The notes: generated by a model not told the origin, from the sequence alone. 64,000 nt of DNA from Olsenella sp. An188 (GCF_002160255.1 NZ_NFKF01000001.1:310001-374000), one strand, 5' to 3'; numbered from the stretch's first letter, positions 38,632 through 45,961 are shown. A program made the numbers and translations.

Positions 38632-41064
38632 TCACACGCGGCGCTTCATCTGGTTGGCACCCTCGCCGGGCATGATGCGGCGCGCGTCGAAGACGCTCGG
38701 CACCCGGCTCACGGCGGAGAGCAGCACGTCGAGCAGGCTCGCGTCAGAGATCGCCACGAGGAAGCGCAGGCGCGCCACGCCCTGGGCGCTCGTCTGCGTG
38801 GCGGCGGAGAGGATGTTGGCCCCCGCGTCGCCGATGGCGACCGTCACGTCCTTGAGCAGCCCCATGCGGTCGGTGGCCTCCACCACGATCTCGACCCTGA
38901 ACTCGGTGGCGCCCGAGGTGTCCCAGGCGACCTCGATCATGCGGGCCGGGTTCCTCATGAGGTCGGCCACGTTGGGGCAGTTGGCCCGGTGGACCGAGAC
39001 CCCGCGGCCGCGCGTGATGAAGCCCACGATCTCGTCGCCGGCGACGGGGTTGCAGCAGTGCGCCAGGTGCACGAGCAGGTCCGGGTCGCCCTTCACCACG
39101 ACGCCGCAGTTGCTCCTGCGCCGCTTGCCGCGCGCGGCCTGCGTGAGCGCGTAGGACTTCATGACCGGCGCGCCGGTCGCCATGGCGTGCTCGTGCTCCG
39201 CCTGGCGCTCCGCCTCGGCGGCCGCCGCGGCGAGCTGCTCGGGCGAGCCCTCCTCGAGGATCTCCTCGATGCGGTTGGCCGCCTGCTTGAGCGAGATCTT
39301 GCCGGTGTGGACGCTCGCGAACAGGTCGTCGGCGCTGCGCAGCTCGAAGCCCTCGCACACGCGCTCGATTGCCTTGACCGTGCGGCGCGTGGAGATGCCG
39401 TAGCCGCGCTTGCGCAGCTCGTGGGCGAGCTCGGTGCGGCCGGCCTCGGCGTCGTCGTTTCTGTTCTGGGTCGAGAAGAACTTGCGGATCTTGGCGCGCG
39501 TGGACGGCATCGCCACGAGGTTCATCCAGTCGCGGCTCGGCTTGGCGTTCTTGTTGGTGAGCACCTCAACGCGGTCGCCCATCTGGAGCTTGGTGGACAG
39601 TGGGACGACCGAGCCGTTGACCTTGGCGCCCACGCAGTGGTTGCCCACCTCGGTGTGCACCGCGTAGGCGAAGTCGAGCGGCGTGGCGTCGCGCCTGAGG
39701 CTCATGACCTCGCCCTTGGGCGTGAAGACGAAGATCTCGTGCTCGAAGAGGTCCACGCGCAGGTTGTCGAGGAACTCGTGCGGGTCGTCGATGTCGTCCT
39801 CAGTGGCCCAGTCGAGGGTCTTGCGGATCCAGTTGATCGTGGAGTCTATGGCGCGGTCCTCGGCGCTCATGCGGCCGCGCGAGTTGCCCTCCTTCTTGTA
39901 GAGCCAGTGGGCCGCGATGCCGTACTCGGAGGCCTCGTGCATCTCGGCCGTGCGGATCTGGATCTCGATCGGCTTGCCGTCGGGGCCCACCACCGTGGTG
40001 TGGAGGCTCTGGTAGAGGTTGGCCTTGGGCGTGGCGATGTAGTCCTTGAAGCGTCCCGGCATGGGGTTCCACAGCGAGTGGACCGCGCCGAGCGCGGAGT
40101 AGCAGTCCCCCACCGTCTGCGTGATCACGCGCAGCGCGATGAGGTCGTAGATGTCGGAGAACTCGCGCCCCTTGCGCGTCATCTTCTGGTAGATGCTCCA
40201 GAGGTGCTTGGGGCGGCCCGTGATCTGGTAGCCCGTGAGGCCGGCGGACTTGAGCTCGTCGTCGAGCGTCTTGATGGCCCGCTCGGTGTCGTCCTCGCGC
40301 TGCGCCCTGCTGTCCTGCACCATGCGCGCCACGCGCTGGTACTCCTCGGGCTCGAGCCAGAAGAAGGCGAGGTCCTCGAGCTCCCACTTGACCGACGAGA
40401 TGCCCAGGCGGTCGGCGAGCGGGGCGTAGACGTCCATGGTCTCGCGCGCCTTGAACAGGCGCCGGTCGGGCGGCAGCGCGGCGAGGGTGCGCATGTTGTG
40501 GAGCCGGTCGGCGAGCTTGATGATGACCACGCGAATGTCGCGGCTCATGGCGAGGAACATCTTGCGCAGGTTCCACGCCTGCTTGGCGTCCATGGAGCTC
40601 ACCTGGATGGAGGTGAGCTTGGTCACGCCGTCCACGAGGTCGGCGACCGTCTGGCCAAAGCGCTCGACGAGCTCGTCCTTGGTCGCCGGGGTGTCCTCCA
40701 CCGTGTCGTGCAGAAGCGCGGCGCAGATGGTGTCCTCGTCCATGCGCAGGTCGTGCGCGAGGATGAGGGCGACCTCGACGGGGTGGTTGATGTAGGGCTC
40801 GCCCGAGCGGCGGCGCTGGTCGCGGTGGTAGTCCGCGGCAAAGCGGTACGCCCGCTCGACCTTCTCGCAGCCCTCCTCGTCGAGGTAGGCCTCGCAGGCG
40901 GCCTGCAGCAGGCGGAAGTTCGCGGCCTCGGGGACGCCCTTTTTCGGACGGGCGGCCGGCGCCGCGGCGGGCTCAGGAGCCCTCGCGTCGGCGGCGGGCC
41001 CGACCCCGGCGGGCGTGCCCGCGGCGGGCGTTGCGGATGCGTGGTCCTTCTCGTTGGCGCTCAT
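38632..41064 (-). CDS. rel: Bifunctional (p)ppGpp synthetase/hydrolase, RelA/SpoT homologue
   Basis: An 810-residue Rel protein. After an alanine/proline-rich 40-residue N-terminus comes the hydrolase domain with GEPYINHPVEVALILA and LLHDTVEDTPAT (the HDxxED motif, so hydrolysis should be active), then the synthetase domain (about 290-400) with EIQIRTAEMHEASEYGIAAHWLYK, a TGS domain (VFTPKGEVMSLRRDATPLDFAYAVHTEVGNHC), a zinc-finger-like CxxHC region (HLAHCCNPVAGDEIVG) and a C-terminal ACT domain. It sets the level of the stringent-response alarmone. It lies 21 bases downstream of the recJ-helicase gene. Confidence 0.96.
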   Translation of the reverse strand: MSANEKDHASATPAAGTPAGVGPAADARAPEPAAAPAARPKKGVPEAANFRLLQAACEAYLDEEGCEKVERAYRFAADYHRDQRRRSGEPYINHPVEVALILAHDLRMDEDTICAALLHDTVEDTPATKDELVERFGQTVADLVDGVTKLTSIQVSSMDAKQAWNLRKMFLAMSRDIRVVIIKLADRLHNMRTLAALPPDRRLFKARETMDVYAPLADRLGISSVKWELEDLAFFWLEPEEYQRVARMVQDSRAQREDDTERAIKTLDDELKSAGLTGYQITGRPKHLWSIYQKMTRKGREFSDIYDLIALRVITQTVGDCYSALGAVHSLWNPMPGRFKDYIATPKANLYQSLHTTVVGPDGKPIEIQIRTAEMHEASEYGIAAHWLYKKEGNSRGRMSAEDRAIDSTINWIRKTLDWATEDDIDDPHEFLDNLRVDLFEHEIFVFTPKGEVMSLRRDATPLDFAYAVHTEVGNHCVGAKVNGSVVPLSTKLQMGDRVEVLTNKNAKPSRDWMNLVAMPSTRAKIRKFFSTQNRNDDAEAGRTELAHELRKRGYGISTRRTVKAIERVCEGFELRSADDLFASVHTGKISLKQAANRIEEILEEGSPEQLAAAAAEAERQAEHEHAMATGAPVMKSYALTQAARGKRRRSNCGVVVKGDPDLLVHLAHCCNPVAGDEIVGFITRGRGVSVHRANCPNVADLMRNPARMIEVAWDTSGATEFRVEIVVEATDRMGLLKDVTVAIGDAGANILSAATQTSAQGVARLRFLVAISDASLLDVLLSAVSRVPSVFDARRIMPGEGANQMKRRV

Positions 41065-41085: not shown

Positions 41086-44000
41086 TCAGACGATGATACC
41101 GAAGTTGGGCGCTATGGGTCGGTTGACGCGGGCGAGAAGATCGTCGGCGGAGGCGTCGAGCACCCAGGAGCTGAACTCGGCGAACGCCTCCTGCAGGTGC
41201 AGGCCCTCCAGGTAGCACGCGGACTGCGTGAGCTCCATGCGCGCCGGCGAGGGGGCCATCTCCACCCTGCGGCCGTCGCCGAAGCCCGTGACCGAGCAGA
41301 AGCCGAGCTCGGAGAAGACCGAGAGCCCCGAGGCGACCTCGCGGCCGTCGAGCGCGCAGCGCGCGTCGAGGGAGCGAGCGGCCGCGGCGATGCCGTCGTC
41401 GTCGAGCGAGACGGCTCCGGAGGCGCGCGAGAGCGACCCGAGCGCCCGGTAGAGCGCGACGAGGTCGGCGCGGGGAGGGGCCGCGGCCGCGAGGATGCGC
41501 TCGCCGGCGCGCACGTCGCGGCCGCCGAAGAGCAGGTGCACCGTCGCCGGCGCCCCGTCGCGGCCCGCGCGGCCGCTCATCTGGTTGAACTCGACCTGGC
41601 CGAGGGGCAGACCGAAGAGAACCACGTGGCGGATGCCGGGGAGGTTGACCCCCTCCCCGAAGGCGCTCGTCGAGACGATGCAGCTCAGCGCGTCGTCGCG
41701 GAAGGCCCGCTCGACGCGGGAGCGCACGCCGCGCGAGAGGCCCGCGTGGTAGAAGGCGAGGCGCGCGGCGAGCTCGGGGACGCGGTGGCGCAGCATCCTC
41801 ACGAGGGAGACCGCCTGGTCGCGCGAGCTCACGTAGACCACGCACTTCTCGCCGGTCGCGACGATTGAGACGAGGGCGGCCTCGCGGTCCCGCAGGTCGC
41901 GGCAGTCGTCCAGGGAGAGGTTGTCGCGGCGCGTTGGGTCGCAGACCACGTCCTGGGGCGCGACGCCGAGCAGGTCGCAGATGCCGCGGGCGACCTCGGG
42001 GGCGGCGGTGGCCGTCACGGCGAGCGCAGGGGGACGCCCCAGGTCGGCGAGGACAGACGGAAGCTCCAGGTAGGCCGCGCGGGCGTGCGGCCCGGCAGAG
42101 CCCGCGTGGTGCGCCTCGTCGACAACGAGAAACCCCACGCGCCCGGACTCCGCGAAGCGCGTGCGGTGGATGGCGAGGAACTCCGGCGTGGTGAGGACGA
42201 CGTCTGCCGTCCCGTCTGCGAGCGCCGAGAAGATCCTCGACCGCTCCGCGCCGGGCGTCTCGCCGGTCAGGACCTCGACGGAGAGCCCCAGGGGCGCGAG
42301 GGCCTCGCGCAGGTGGTAGGCCTGGTCGGCGACGAGGGCGCGCAGCGGGTAGACGAAGACGCTCGCACGCCCGCGCGCGATGGCCTCGCGGGCGGCGTGG
42401 AGGTGGAAGACGAGGGACTTGCCGCGCCCCGTGGCCATGACGGCCAGGCACGAGCGTCCGGCGGCGAGGCGCTCGAGCGCCGCGCGCTGCGCCTCAAGGA
42501 GCGGAGCGTCGCCGATCATCTGGCGTCGGAGGGCGTCGGTGAGCTCATCCCCGCCGAGCCGGGCGAGCTCGGAGCGGCGCGCGGCCTCGGGGGCGGGCGC
42601 GTCGGGGCGCCCGGGCGAGGGGCGAGAGGCGGCCTCGGCGTCTGCCGCGGCCAGGAGGTCGTCGGCGAGCGAGGGGGCGCCGTCGGCCCCCTCCCCCGTG
42701 CGCAGCACGAGGTCCTTGACCATGAGCTTGGGCTTGGTGCGGCCCTGCCAGGTCTCGTTCACCGCCTCGAAGACGACGTCGACGGCCCCCTCCCAGGCGC
42801 AGGCGCGCTCGGGGTCGGGGGCCCTGAACATGATGGCGGGAACCGAGCTCACCCCGTCGGTGGCAACGAAGCGCAGGTGGGCGCCGTCGGCGCCGACGAG
42901 GGCGCGGTTTCTCGTGGAGACGCCGGTGACCGCGAGCAGGGGGCGCTTGTTGCCCTGCCCGAAGGGCTGGAGGCCCTCGAGCTCGCTCACGGACTCCACC
43001 GTGATCTCCCCGAGCCGCACGACCGCGGCAATCTCACCCGTGTCCTCGAACTGCTCGTCCGGGAGCGTGGCGAGGGCGGCCGAGAGCCGCGCGCGGAACT
43101 CGTCGACCTTCTCCGCCTCGCACGTCACGCCCACCGCTCCGGCGTGCCCGCCGAAGCGCACGAGCACGTCGGCGCACTGCTCGACGGCGTGGAAGAGGTC
43201 GACGGAGCCGACCGAGCGCCCCGACCCGCGCGCGAGGCCGTCCTCGGTGACGCTGAAGACGATCGCGGGGACGTGGTAGCGGTTCACGAGGCGCGAGGCG
43301 ACGATGCCCTTGACGCCCTCGTGCCAGCCCTCGCCCGCGACGACCACGGCACGGCCGCCGTCGTAGGTGAGCTCGGCCTGGGCGAGCGCGCGCTCGGCGA
43401 GGGCGGCCTCGGTCTCGCGGCGCTCGGTGTTGACGGCCTCGAGCCGGCCGGCGAGCTCGGCGGCCTCGGCGGGGTCATCGGTGAGCAGCAGGTCGAGCGC
43501 GACGTCGGTCGAGCCCATGCGCCCGGCCGCGTTCAGGCGCGGGATGAGCGAGAAGGGCAGGCCGTCGGCGGCCGCCTCGGCGAGGTCGACCCCCGCCGTG
43601 GCCGCGAGCGCCACGAGCCCGGGACGGGTGTGGTGCCGCATGCGCTCCACGCCCTCCGCGACGAGCGCGCGGTTCTCGCCCGCGAGCAGCATCATGTCCG
43701 AGAGGGTGCCGAGAGCTGCGACGTCAACGTAGTCGAGCCAGAGGTCGGGCATGCCGCGACGCCGGCCGAGCTCGCAGACGAGCTTGAGCGCCACCCCGGC
43801 GCCCGCGAGCTCACGCGAGGGGCAGTCGGGGTCGAGCTTGGGGTCGGTCACGGGAACGCCCTCGGGCACGAGGTCGGCCGGCTCGTGGTGGTCGGTCACC
43901 ACCACGTCGACGCCGGACTCGGTGAGCCACGCGACCTCGCGCGCCGAGGCGATGCCGTTGTCGACGGTCACCACGAGGTCCGGCGAGCAGCCGCTCCGGA

Positions 44001-44406
44001 CGCGGTCGAGCGCCTCGCGCGACAGCCCGTACCCCTCGCCGAAGCGCCGGGGGATGAAGGGGTGGACGTCGCCGCCGAGACGGCGCAGCGCGAGCGTGAG
44101 CAGGCAGGTCGAGGTCATCCCGTCCACGTCGAAGTCGCCGAAGACGGCGATGGTCTCATGCTCGTCGAGGGCGCGCCCCACGCGCTCGACCGCCTCGTCC
44201 ATCCCGGGGATGACGAGCGGGTCCTCCCAGTCGCGCGCGAGCGACGGTGTGAGGAAGGCCCGCGCGTCCTCTGGGTCAGCATGCCCGCGGGCGACCAGGA
44301 CCCGCGCCACGAGCGGCGCCACGCCGAGCTCGTCTGCAAGCCGGCGCTCGGCAGACCTGTCGGACGGCAGCACCGCCCAGCGGCGGCTCTCCAGGACGCC
44401 GGGCAT
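41086..44406 (-). CDS. recJ: RecJ single-strand exonuclease fused to a RecQ-like helicase
   Basis: A 1106-residue fusion. Residues about 1-560 are RecJ: FGDFDVDGMTS, TVDNGIAS, VVTDHHEP and ALGTLSDMM supply the metal-binding aspartates and histidines, FGGHAGAVGVT is the DHHA1 GGH motif, and LEGLQPFGQGNKRPLL starts the OB-like part. From about 640 a superfamily 2 helicase follows: Walker A MATGRGKSLVFHL near 659, YPLRALVADQ, DEAHHAG near 765, AVTATAAPEVA, TSAFGEGVNLPGI and QMSGRAGRDG near 943. A winged-helix-like tail ends the protein. RecJ and RecQ act together in end resection; here both are on one chain. Frame is continuous throughout. Confidence 0.93.
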   Translation of the reverse strand: MPGVLESRRWAVLPSDRSAERRLADELGVAPLVARVLVARGHADPEDARAFLTPSLARDWEDPLVIPGMDEAVERVGRALDEHETIAVFGDFDVDGMTSTCLLTLALRRLGGDVHPFIPRRFGEGYGLSREALDRVRSGCSPDLVVTVDNGIASAREVAWLTESGVDVVVTDHHEPADLVPEGVPVTDPKLDPDCPSRELAGAGVALKLVCELGRRRGMPDLWLDYVDVAALGTLSDMMLLAGENRALVAEGVERMRHHTRPGLVALAATAGVDLAEAAADGLPFSLIPRLNAAGRMGSTDVALDLLLTDDPAEAAELAGRLEAVNTERRETEAALAERALAQAELTYDGGRAVVVAGEGWHEGVKGIVASRLVNRYHVPAIVFSVTEDGLARGSGRSVGSVDLFHAVEQCADVLVRFGGHAGAVGVTCEAEKVDEFRARLSAALATLPDEQFEDTGEIAAVVRLGEITVESVSELEGLQPFGQGNKRPLLAVTGVSTRNRALVGADGAHLRFVATDGVSSVPAIMFRAPDPERACAWEGAVDVVFEAVNETWQGRTKPKLMVKDLVLRTGEGADGAPSLADDLLAAADAEAASRPSPGRPDAPAPEAARRSELARLGGDELTDALRRQMIGDAPLLEAQRAALERLAAGRSCLAVMATGRGKSLVFHLHAAREAIARGRASVFVYPLRALVADQAYHLREALAPLGLSVEVLTGETPGAERSRIFSALADGTADVVLTTPEFLAIHRTRFAESGRVGFLVVDEAHHAGSAGPHARAAYLELPSVLADLGRPPALAVTATAAPEVARGICDLLGVAPQDVVCDPTRRDNLSLDDCRDLRDREAALVSIVATGEKCVVYVSSRDQAVSLVRMLRHRVPELAARLAFYHAGLSRGVRSRVERAFRDDALSCIVSTSAFGEGVNLPGIRHVVLFGLPLGQVEFNQMSGRAGRDGAPATVHLLFGGRDVRAGERILAAAAPPRADLVALYRALGSLSRASGAVSLDDDGIAAAARSLDARCALDGREVASGLSVFSELGFCSVTGFGDGRRVEMAPSPARMELTQSACYLEGLHLQEAFAEFSSWVLDASADDLLARVNRPIAPNFGIIV

Positions 44407-44577: not shown

Positions 44578-45717
44578 CTACCAGTCCCGGGCGGCCGGCG
44601 AGGCCATCCAGTCCTCGACGAAGGAGGCGTAGGTGCCCGCGGCCACCGCCTCGCGCACGCGGCGCATGAGGTCGAGCAGGTAGAAGATGTTGTGCTGCGA
44701 GATGAGGATCGAGCCGAGCATCTCCTTCTGCCGCACGAGGTGGTGCAGGTAGGCGCGCGAGAAGCCCCCGGTGCAGGTGGGGCAGGAGCACGCCGGGTCG
44801 AGCGGGCCGCGGTCGTGCGCGAAGCGCGCGTGGCGGAAGTTGAGGCGCCCCTCGCTCGAGAAGGCCGATCCCGTGCGCGCGGTGCGCGTGGGCAGCACGC
44901 AGTCGAACATGTCAACGCCGCAGGCCACGGCGCGCACGAGCGTGGTGGGGTTGCCCACGCCCATGAGGTAGCGGGGCTTCTCCGCCGGCATGTGCTCGGA
45001 GACGAGCGGCGCGAGCGTCTCGAACATCGTCTCGTGGTCCTCGCCCACCGAGTAGCCGCCGATGCCAAAGCCCGGGAAGTCGCCGACCTCGGTGAGGTGA
45101 CGCAGGCTGCGCAGGCGCAGGTCGAGGTGCATGCCTCCCTGAACGATGCCAAAGAGCGCCTGGTCGGGACGGGTGTGCGCGGCATAGCAGCGCTCCGCCC
45201 AGCGGCTCGAGAGCTCCACCGAGCGCTCCACCTTGGACCTCGGCGCCGGGTAGCCCACGCACTGGTCGAGCTGCATCACGACGTCCGCGCCGAGCTTCTG
45301 CGCGATGGCCATGTTCTCCTCGGGCGTCCAGGAGACCCACTTTCCGTCGTAGTCCACGGCGCGGAAGCGCACGCCGTCGTCGGAGAGGCGGCAGAACTCC
45401 TCGTGGCTGAACACCTGGAAGCCGCCGGAGTCGGTGAGGATGGGGTGGTGCCAGCCCATGAAGTCGTGCAGGCCCCCCATCTCGGCCACGAGGTCGGCTC
45501 CGGGGCGCATGGAGAGATGGTAGGTGTTGGCGAGCACGATCTTGGCGCCGAGCGCCTCGAGCGAGGCGGGCGTGAGCCCCTTGACCGTGGCCTTGGTGCC
45601 CACGGGCATGAAGATGGGGGTCGGGACGTCGCCGTGCGGGGTGTGCAGGACGCCCGCGCGCGCGTGCGTGCCGGGGTCCTCGGCGAGGACGTCGTAGGTG
45701 AAGAGGCTCTGGTCCAT
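44578..45717 (-). CDS. tgt: Queuine/preQ1 tRNA-guanine transglycosylase
   Basis: A 379-residue enzyme exchanging the wobble guanine of GUN-anticodon tRNAs for preQ1 (or queuine). It has the active-site Asp in TDSGGFQVFS, GIVQGGMH, the nucleophile region DMFDCVLPTRTARTG, and the zinc ligands CSCPTCTGGFSRAYLHH. AAGGAG precedes the ATG at 45717; the open frame upstream is not used. QueA and QueH, the next steps of queuosine synthesis, are encoded at 47.8 and 50.1 kb. Confidence 0.96.
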   Translation of the reverse strand: MDQSLFTYDVLAEDPGTHARAGVLHTPHGDVPTPIFMPVGTKATVKGLTPASLEALGAKIVLANTYHLSMRPGADLVAEMGGLHDFMGWHHPILTDSGGFQVFSHEEFCRLSDDGVRFRAVDYDGKWVSWTPEENMAIAQKLGADVVMQLDQCVGYPAPRSKVERSVELSSRWAERCYAAHTRPDQALFGIVQGGMHLDLRLRSLRHLTEVGDFPGFGIGGYSVGEDHETMFETLAPLVSEHMPAEKPRYLMGVGNPTTLVRAVACGVDMFDCVLPTRTARTGSAFSSEGRLNFRHARFAHDRGPLDPACSCPTCTGGFSRAYLHHLVRQKEMLGSILISQHNIFYLLDLMRRVREAVAAGTYASFVEDWMASPAARDW

Positions 45718-45798
45718 GTGACTCCTTCGTGGTCTGCGTGCGGCCCGGCGAGAAGAACCCGCGTACCGCGGGCCAGACGCGCTCCCCGCGGCGCGGCC

Positions 45799-45931
45799 GG
45801 CCGCACAATTCCCGAATTGTGCGGCCCATCCCGGCCACTTGGGCGAGAAGTGCCGGGAAGAGGTTCTTCTCGCCTGCGAAATGACGTCGCGGGCGCCTGC
45901 GTCCGCGCACAGTCTGGGAATTGTGCGCGCC
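45799..45931. repeat. CGCACAATTC palindromes upstream of tgt
   Basis: GGCCGCACAATTC and GAATTGTGCGGCC form a perfect 28-base palindrome with two central bases (45799-45826); a related, looser copy GCGCACA...GGAATTGTGCGC lies at 45905-45930. Between them are two octamers, GGCGAGAA at 45842 and the 12-mer GTTCTTCTCGCC at 45863. The 309-base gap between tgt and ptsH holds only this and the ptsH terminator. An operator role or a decayed repeat element are both possible. Confidence 0.55.
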
Positions 45932-45961
45932 GGGGGCAAACGACGTCGCAACACCCCATCC

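Follow-up and report, generated by a model that had tools for sequence, protein, structure and literature searches.

The locus described here raises the question of whether a RecJ exonuclease and a RecQ-like helicase are truly joined in one protein and, if so, what kind of helicase this is and how the two came together. The window, i.e. the whole stretch of 64,000 nucleotides from Olsenella sp. An188 that was analysed, contains an open frame of 1106 codons which a sequence-only reading had taken for such a fusion. The gene lies on the minus strand (44406..41086), a point absent from that reading, and a GGAGG ribosome site stands upstream of its ATG. All nine motifs quoted there were found in the translation: GDFDVDG, DNGI, DHH, LSDMM and GGH of RecJ at residues 90, 149, 172, 235 and 419, and TGRGKS, DEAH, TATA and QMSGRAGRDG of the helicase at residues 659, 763, 798 and 942. 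Long antisense ORFs are also present in this GC-rich stretch; they look like chance overlaps. The features of the locus are collected in Table 1.

Table 1. Features of the RecJ-helicase locus, in coordinates of the window.
Feature	Coordinates	Strand	Basis or remark
RelA/SpoT-type (p)ppGpp synthetase, 21 bp downstream of the fusion gene	38632..41064	-	
Fused RecJ exonuclease–RecQ-clade SF2 helicase, 1106 aa	41086..44406	-	one frame in relatives; AlphaFold2 model
C-terminal helical/winged-helix region, residues 973-1106	41089..41490	-	profile-profile homology to ordinary RecJ tails
Helicase lobe 2 (RecA2), residues 813-972, motifs V, VI (QMSGRAGRDG)	41491..41970	-	Pfam Helicase_C
Helicase lobe 1 (RecA1), residues 613-812, motif I TGRGKS and motif II DEAH	41971..42570	-	Pfam DEAD, alignment
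Linker, residues 567-612	42571..42708	-	HIRAN site in relatives; dN/dS ~0.95
RecJ core, residues 1-566	42709..44406	-	Pfam, NCBIfam, structural match to solved RecJ
RecJ core domains: DHH 85-234, DHHA1 353-446, OB 461-565 (residues)			Pfam
tRNA-guanine transglycosylase (tgt)-like upstream gene	44578..45954	-	translation judged by eye

The protein matched the Pfam families DHH, DHHA1, RecJ_OB, DEAD and Helicase_C, all well over the cut-off. With its DHH, DHHA1 and OB domains and its metal motifs the first half belongs to RecJ, and the second half has the motifs I, II, III, V and VI and the two RecA lobes of an SF2 helicase. At 459 bits against a cut-off of 396.9 the protein passed the NCBIfam recJ equivalog (TIGR00644), by which all of it would be called 'single-stranded-DNA-specific exonuclease RecJ'; current annotation therefore likely hides the helicase. 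Structure prediction, which had been proposed as a check, gave an AlphaFold2 model of the whole chain with a mean pLDDT of 91.7 and a pTM of 0.83. Its nuclease half resembled solved bacterial RecJ structures (Z 42-52), among them those of D. radiodurans and T. thermophilus (Z 48-50 over ~520 residues at 2-3 Å), and the best structural matches of its helicase half were RecQ, WRN and BLM (Z up to 27.7); lobe 2 of the model superimposed on lobe 2 of RecQ with a Z of 20.4 over 141 residues at 1.4 Å.

A sequencing or assembly artefact could have joined two genes into one, and in a few drafts the gene is indeed split between two frames or two contigs (G034, G010). The survey of domain order in Coriobacteriia speaks to this point. 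The fusion was present in all 40 Coriobacteriales genomes searched, and wherever the whole gene lay on one contig it formed a single open frame of ~1000-1390 codons, except in the draft G034, where the frame breaks within the OB domain; among the well-covered Coriobacteriales, the two exceptions were a draft with a frameshift and a break between contigs. In relatives at 44-82% identity the same RecJ-helicase chain occupies one open frame, with none of the separate starts and stops that a frameshift between two genes would leave, and closed or high-quality genomes from two phyla carry the gene in one frame. Since the single frame recurs in relatives from Coriobacteriia, Oleimmundimicrobium and Bacillota, we consider an artefact as good as impossible, and the fusion into one protein of 1106 residues stands.

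Selection on the gene was estimated within the genus from 23 sequences. The median dN/dS was 0.24 for the RecJ core, 0.26 for lobe 1 and 0.27 for lobe 2, 0.45 for the C-terminal tail and 0.95 for the linker. Both halves are under equal purifying selection, and the linker drifts freely. The low values in both halves, together with the occurrence of the same chain in one frame in relatives, exclude a chance origin. In L034 (from G034) and in L165 (Atopobium minutum DSM 20586) the chain is not in one frame, which reflects a sequencing error or a young pseudogene.

The fusion is thus confirmed, and it is more widespread than the sequence-only reading held. It is not peculiar to Coriobacteriia and occurs in Bacillota too. 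In a scan of the genome collection the chain turned up in Candidatus Oleimmundimicrobium (L096) and, within Bacillota, in MAGs of Thermincola (L098, L099), Peptococcaceae (L101, L107, L154) and Massilibacillus (L102) and in Anaerospora hongkongensis DSM 15969 (L121). Of 101 Bacillota genomes sampled, 8 carry the intact fusion. A search of viral contigs with the Oleimmundimicrobium protein gave no match. A HIRAN domain sits between the OB domain and the helicase in 9 of 16 fused proteins and is also found in those of Anaerospora and Thermincola. The window protein has no Pfam match to HIRAN, and the drifting linker occupies that place. The HIRAN domain of human HLTF recognises single-strand 3'-hydroxyl ends (PMC13154178).

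Some other RecJ-like genes and records stood out. Three Bacillota RecJ proteins (L224, L225, L226) have long N-terminal extensions, with 1035-1285 codons in total, and are not helicase fusions. A second RecJ-like match of ~750-810 codons, perhaps a paralogue, is present in the Bacillota genomes G243, G290, G248, G320 and G323. The records NZ_CP054613.1, NZ_CP030101.1, NZ_CP154629.1 and others are labelled as plasmids, are megabase-sized and contain recJ; they look like misfiled chromosomes.

Next we consider the identity of the helicase half, which had been called RecQ-like. Its relationship to RecQ as an SF2 helicase holds, but it is not RecQ proper. In the clean-bounds tree, 28 fused helicases formed one clade and 15 RecQs, drawn from the same phyla as the fused proteins, formed another, each with an SH-aLRT support of 100. 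By this tree, the fused helicases are shown to be a clade of single origin and sister to RecQ. The window helicase also fell below both NCBIfam RecQ cut-offs (recQ, 170 against 640; recQ_fam, 163 against 220). The aromatic loop that follows motif II in RecQ (DEAHC.S.WG.DFRP.Y) was present in all 15 RecQs and in none of 27 fused helicases. The missing zinc-binding cysteine set noted earlier was verified, as the window protein has only C1017, C1037 and C1064 past residue 940. The scores, the missing loop and the separate clade rule out a canonical RecQ.

The earlier view of TGRGKS as a deviation from TGGGKS did not hold up. The sequence fits SF2 motif I (AxTGxGKS) and is therefore better taken as a signature of the clade than as a defect; all 27 of the fused helicases compared share T-x-R-G-K-S, which rules out a damaged Walker A. 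At the key positions of motifs II, V and VI these 27 proteins likewise show little or no variation. In RecQ the aromatic loop couples ATP hydrolysis to unwinding. Since the loop is missing, the fused helicase may be a weak translocase or one that acts in another way.

An additional C-terminal region is found in RecJ from other Actinomycetota and from most Bacillota. These tails, which the sequence-only reading did not connect with the helicase, were compared with the fused helicase by profile-profile alignment. In hhalign, 16 Bacillota tails matched the fused helicase with an E of 2e-28 (score 206), 15 Actinomycetota tails with an E of 1e-17 (score 120) and four Bacilli tails with an E of 2e-7 (score 59); the maximum scores in 60 column shuffles were 20, 25 and 20, respectively. 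The same tails matched RecQ much more weakly (scores of 89 for Bacillota, 39 for Actinomycetota and 30 for Bacilli). Lobe 2 and the winged helix each matched separately, and in the same order, for the Actinomycetota and Bacillota tails, and the winged-helix part alone matched RecJ C-terminal domains with an E of 7e-17. In the Bacilli tails taken alone lobe 2 was not significant (E 0.03), and the winged helix carried the match (E 4e-7). By these profile comparisons, the RecJ tails are shown to be homologous to the fused helicase in its lobe 2 and its winged helix. In two members of the Actinomycetota family f51 (L063, L077) the tails are ~65-70 residues long and alike, and matched neither lobe 2 nor the winged helix.

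The C-terminal tail of ordinary RecJ corresponds to the Pfam domain PF10141 (ssDNA-exonuc_C). The window protein itself has no Pfam match to this domain, which was matched by 9 of 27 fused helicases (best E 3.6e-5) and by four Actinomycetota RecJ tails. In the eroded tail of L198, a transitional sequence, PF10141 (E 1e-5) and Helicase_C (E 0.01) cover overlapping residues, and the PF10141 score is just short of the gathering cut-off (25.9 against 26.4). A search of the PDB with the Bacilli-tail profile found residues 592-755 of S. aureus RecJ (E 1.7e-24); with the Actinomycetota tails, hmmsearch of the same database returned generic winged helices only, without S. aureus RecJ among them. The near-top Foldseek matches of a lobe-2 plus winged-helix model were helicase lobes only, so that this search speaks to lobe 2. 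The solved S. aureus RecJ aligned along its whole length with the AlphaFold2 model; the alignment comprises 670 residues, extends over residues 1 to 1095 and has an rmsd of 16.5 Å, which shows that domain placement differs between this structure and the predicted one. The alignment is ~140-150 residues longer than the DrRecJ alignments that end at the OB domain. Most of the DrRecJ alignments, on which a possible homology of the Deinococcus-Thermus domain IV with the helicase tail was examined, end there. Judged by these matches, the PF10141 tail in RecJ of Listeria, Paenibacillus and Staphylococcus seems to be what erosion has left of the fused helicase.

Many stages between the intact helicase and its complete absence are represented. 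The window protein, L121 and L098 are intact. L176, L187 and L223 are full-length pseudohelicases with dead motifs; L176, for instance, has TRM for GKS and EEFH for DEAH. Lobe 1 is deleted and lobe 2 still recognisable in L198 (74.7 bits for lobe 2), L195 and L202, only the winged helix is left in L183, L184 and L181, and L201 and L228 have no helicase tail. The one-lobed and motif-dead forms are most simply interpreted as losses, because the outgroup RecQ has both lobes; the counts alone are neutral. Fused, shortened and lost forms are interleaved on the tree of the RecJ core. Here L198 is nested with L157 and L212 (support 99), L183 and L184 with Anaerospora and Massilibacillus (support 95), and L060 and L172 with Oleimmundimicrobium (support 99). 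A loss can even be followed within one genus of Coriobacteriia, in which G157 and G189 have the fusion (L083, L084) and G210 has a RecJ of 568 aa without the helicase (L085, G210:C6). L085 stands beside the fused L083 with a support of 100, and the loss was clean, with secF upstream and relA downstream retained. The adjacency of recJ and relA, found in the window and with the helicase-less L085, also occurs in the Clostridia Vescimonas (L090) and Monoglobus (L092).

The scatter of fused forms over the RecJ-core tree, on which a single clade for all of them was rejected (p-AU 4e-112), is what would be expected if several independent fusions had brought a related helicase to RecJ and the tails of other RecJ proteins were unrelated winged-helix domains. 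This explanation is difficult to reconcile with the single clade of the fused helicases or with the correlation between the patristic distances of RecJ core and helicase (Mantel r 0.82); none of 2000 permutations was as high, and their maximum was 0.38. Furthermore, among the sampled Actinomycetota and Bacillota the thresholds applied yielded no free-standing member of the fused-helicase clade, both lobe 2 and the winged helix have their counterparts in the tails, in unchanged order, and motif-dead intermediates exist. We therefore judge repeated fusions to be very improbable. Some of the scatter may come from horizontal transfer, also between phyla, since support is poor for the deep branches of the RecJ tree. 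The fusion is probably old, and the correlated distances indicate that its halves co-evolve and were inherited as a unit. It is likely that the RecJ-(HIRAN)-helicase chain arose once, in or before the RecJ history of Bacillota and Actinomycetota, that the tail of the textbook Firmicutes RecJ is a fossil pseudohelicase, eroded repeatedly and independently, and that the machine persists intact in Coriobacteriia and in some Clostridia and Negativicutes.

The genome of the window has other means of resecting DNA. It contains adjacent AddA/AddB-like genes (L247, 3470-7573 and 7006-10278; G000:C15), of which the AddA-like gene is under the curated cut-off and the AddB-like gene has a nuclease-type C-terminus, and a separate stand-alone RecQ (G000:C10). 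The pair and this RecQ together rule out the fused enzyme as the sole resection route. Given the AddA/AddB-like pair, the fused protein is probably an enzyme of RecF-type, gap or fork resection and not the sole machine that processes breaks.

We infer the enzyme activities, the polarity, the feeding of the strand and the biological role of the fused protein as follows. A coupled unwinding nuclease, as suggested in the sequence-only reading, is plausible because the covalent fusion is genuine and both of its halves are under purifying selection. From its kinship as a sister of RecQ, and from this only, the helicase is expected to have a 3'-5' polarity. The helicase half would load onto the 3'-ended strand and open the duplex while moving 3'-5', and the displaced 5'-ended strand would be fed to the RecJ half and degraded 5'-3'. 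A 3'-5' motor and a 5'-3' nuclease on opposite strands advance together, so that in a covalent pair the strand could be handed straight from one half to the other; a 3' single-stranded tail would be left for RecA. In many relatives the HIRAN domain between the halves may hold the 3' end. In most Bacillota and Actinomycetota the helicase would then have been lost stepwise, starting with death of the motifs and loss of lobe 1, which would leave a lobe-2 stub with the winged helix, then the winged helix alone and finally nothing.

The helicase half could instead have ceased to unwind and serve as an ATP-driven clamp or as a docking module, e.g. for SSB, that positions RecJ. Such a role would explain why the helicase is easily lost elsewhere, as it has been repeatedly and even among G157, G189 and G210, and the RecQ aromatic loop is indeed missing from the fused helicases. 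Binding of SSB is known for B. subtilis RecJ (PMC3000357), and the tail of D. radiodurans RecJ binds the C-terminus of SSB (PMC4846377); by analogy, these cases suggest the winged helix as a candidate SSB-binding part. However, the ATPase and helicase motifs are conserved in 27 fused proteins, and a mere dock needs no motifs I to VI; moreover, both lobes have the same dN/dS as the nuclease. A clamp or dock therefore seems rather unlikely. Together, these results make it likely that the fused protein is a one-chain DNA end-resection enzyme, that the fusion is old, and that the helicase was lost stepwise elsewhere, with PF10141 as its remnant.

In searches of an open-access library we found no description of a RecJ-RecQ fusion, of a RecJ with HIRAN or of a RecJ with a degenerate helicase, and no mechanism assigned to the PF10141 domain. 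To our knowledge the RecJ tail has not been reported as a fossil helicase, and this reinterpretation is the most interesting part of the analysis. It explains where a Pfam domain in RecJ from Bacillus-type bacteria and from pathogens such as Staphylococcus and Listeria would come from, makes predictions about it that can be tested, and offers well-sampled stages of a motor domain decaying into a pseudoenzyme. The intact protein is a natural covalent RecQ-RecJ-like enzyme, suited to measuring whether coupling makes resection processive.

Comparison with known proteins places the fused enzyme as follows. It shares with the RecQ family the two-lobe SF2 core with motifs 0-VI, and differs in having no aromatic loop, no zinc domain and another winged-helix tail. 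PF10141 is homologous to its lobe 2 and winged helix but has neither the nucleotide-binding motifs nor lobe 1. Similarly, S. aureus RecJ (8y30) has the same complete DHH-DHHA1-OB nuclease core as the window protein, whereas its tail is without lobe 1 and without any helicase motif, in contrast to the full two-lobe helicase of the window protein. AddAB/RecBCD and WRN only work in a like manner, in that helicase and nuclease are physically coupled. The nuclease folds of AddAB, RecBCD and WRN are unrelated to RecJ, the motors of AddAB and RecBCD belong to SF1, and WRN digests 3'-5'. A functional parallel is found in E. coli and Deinococcus, where RecQ, RecJ and SSB cooperate in resecting blunt and 3'-overhang ends; the division of labour expected for the fused protein is the same, 3'-5' unwinding and 5'-3' digestion (PMC4846377). 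There RecQ and RecJ are separate proteins, whereas the fused protein combines both in one polypeptide.
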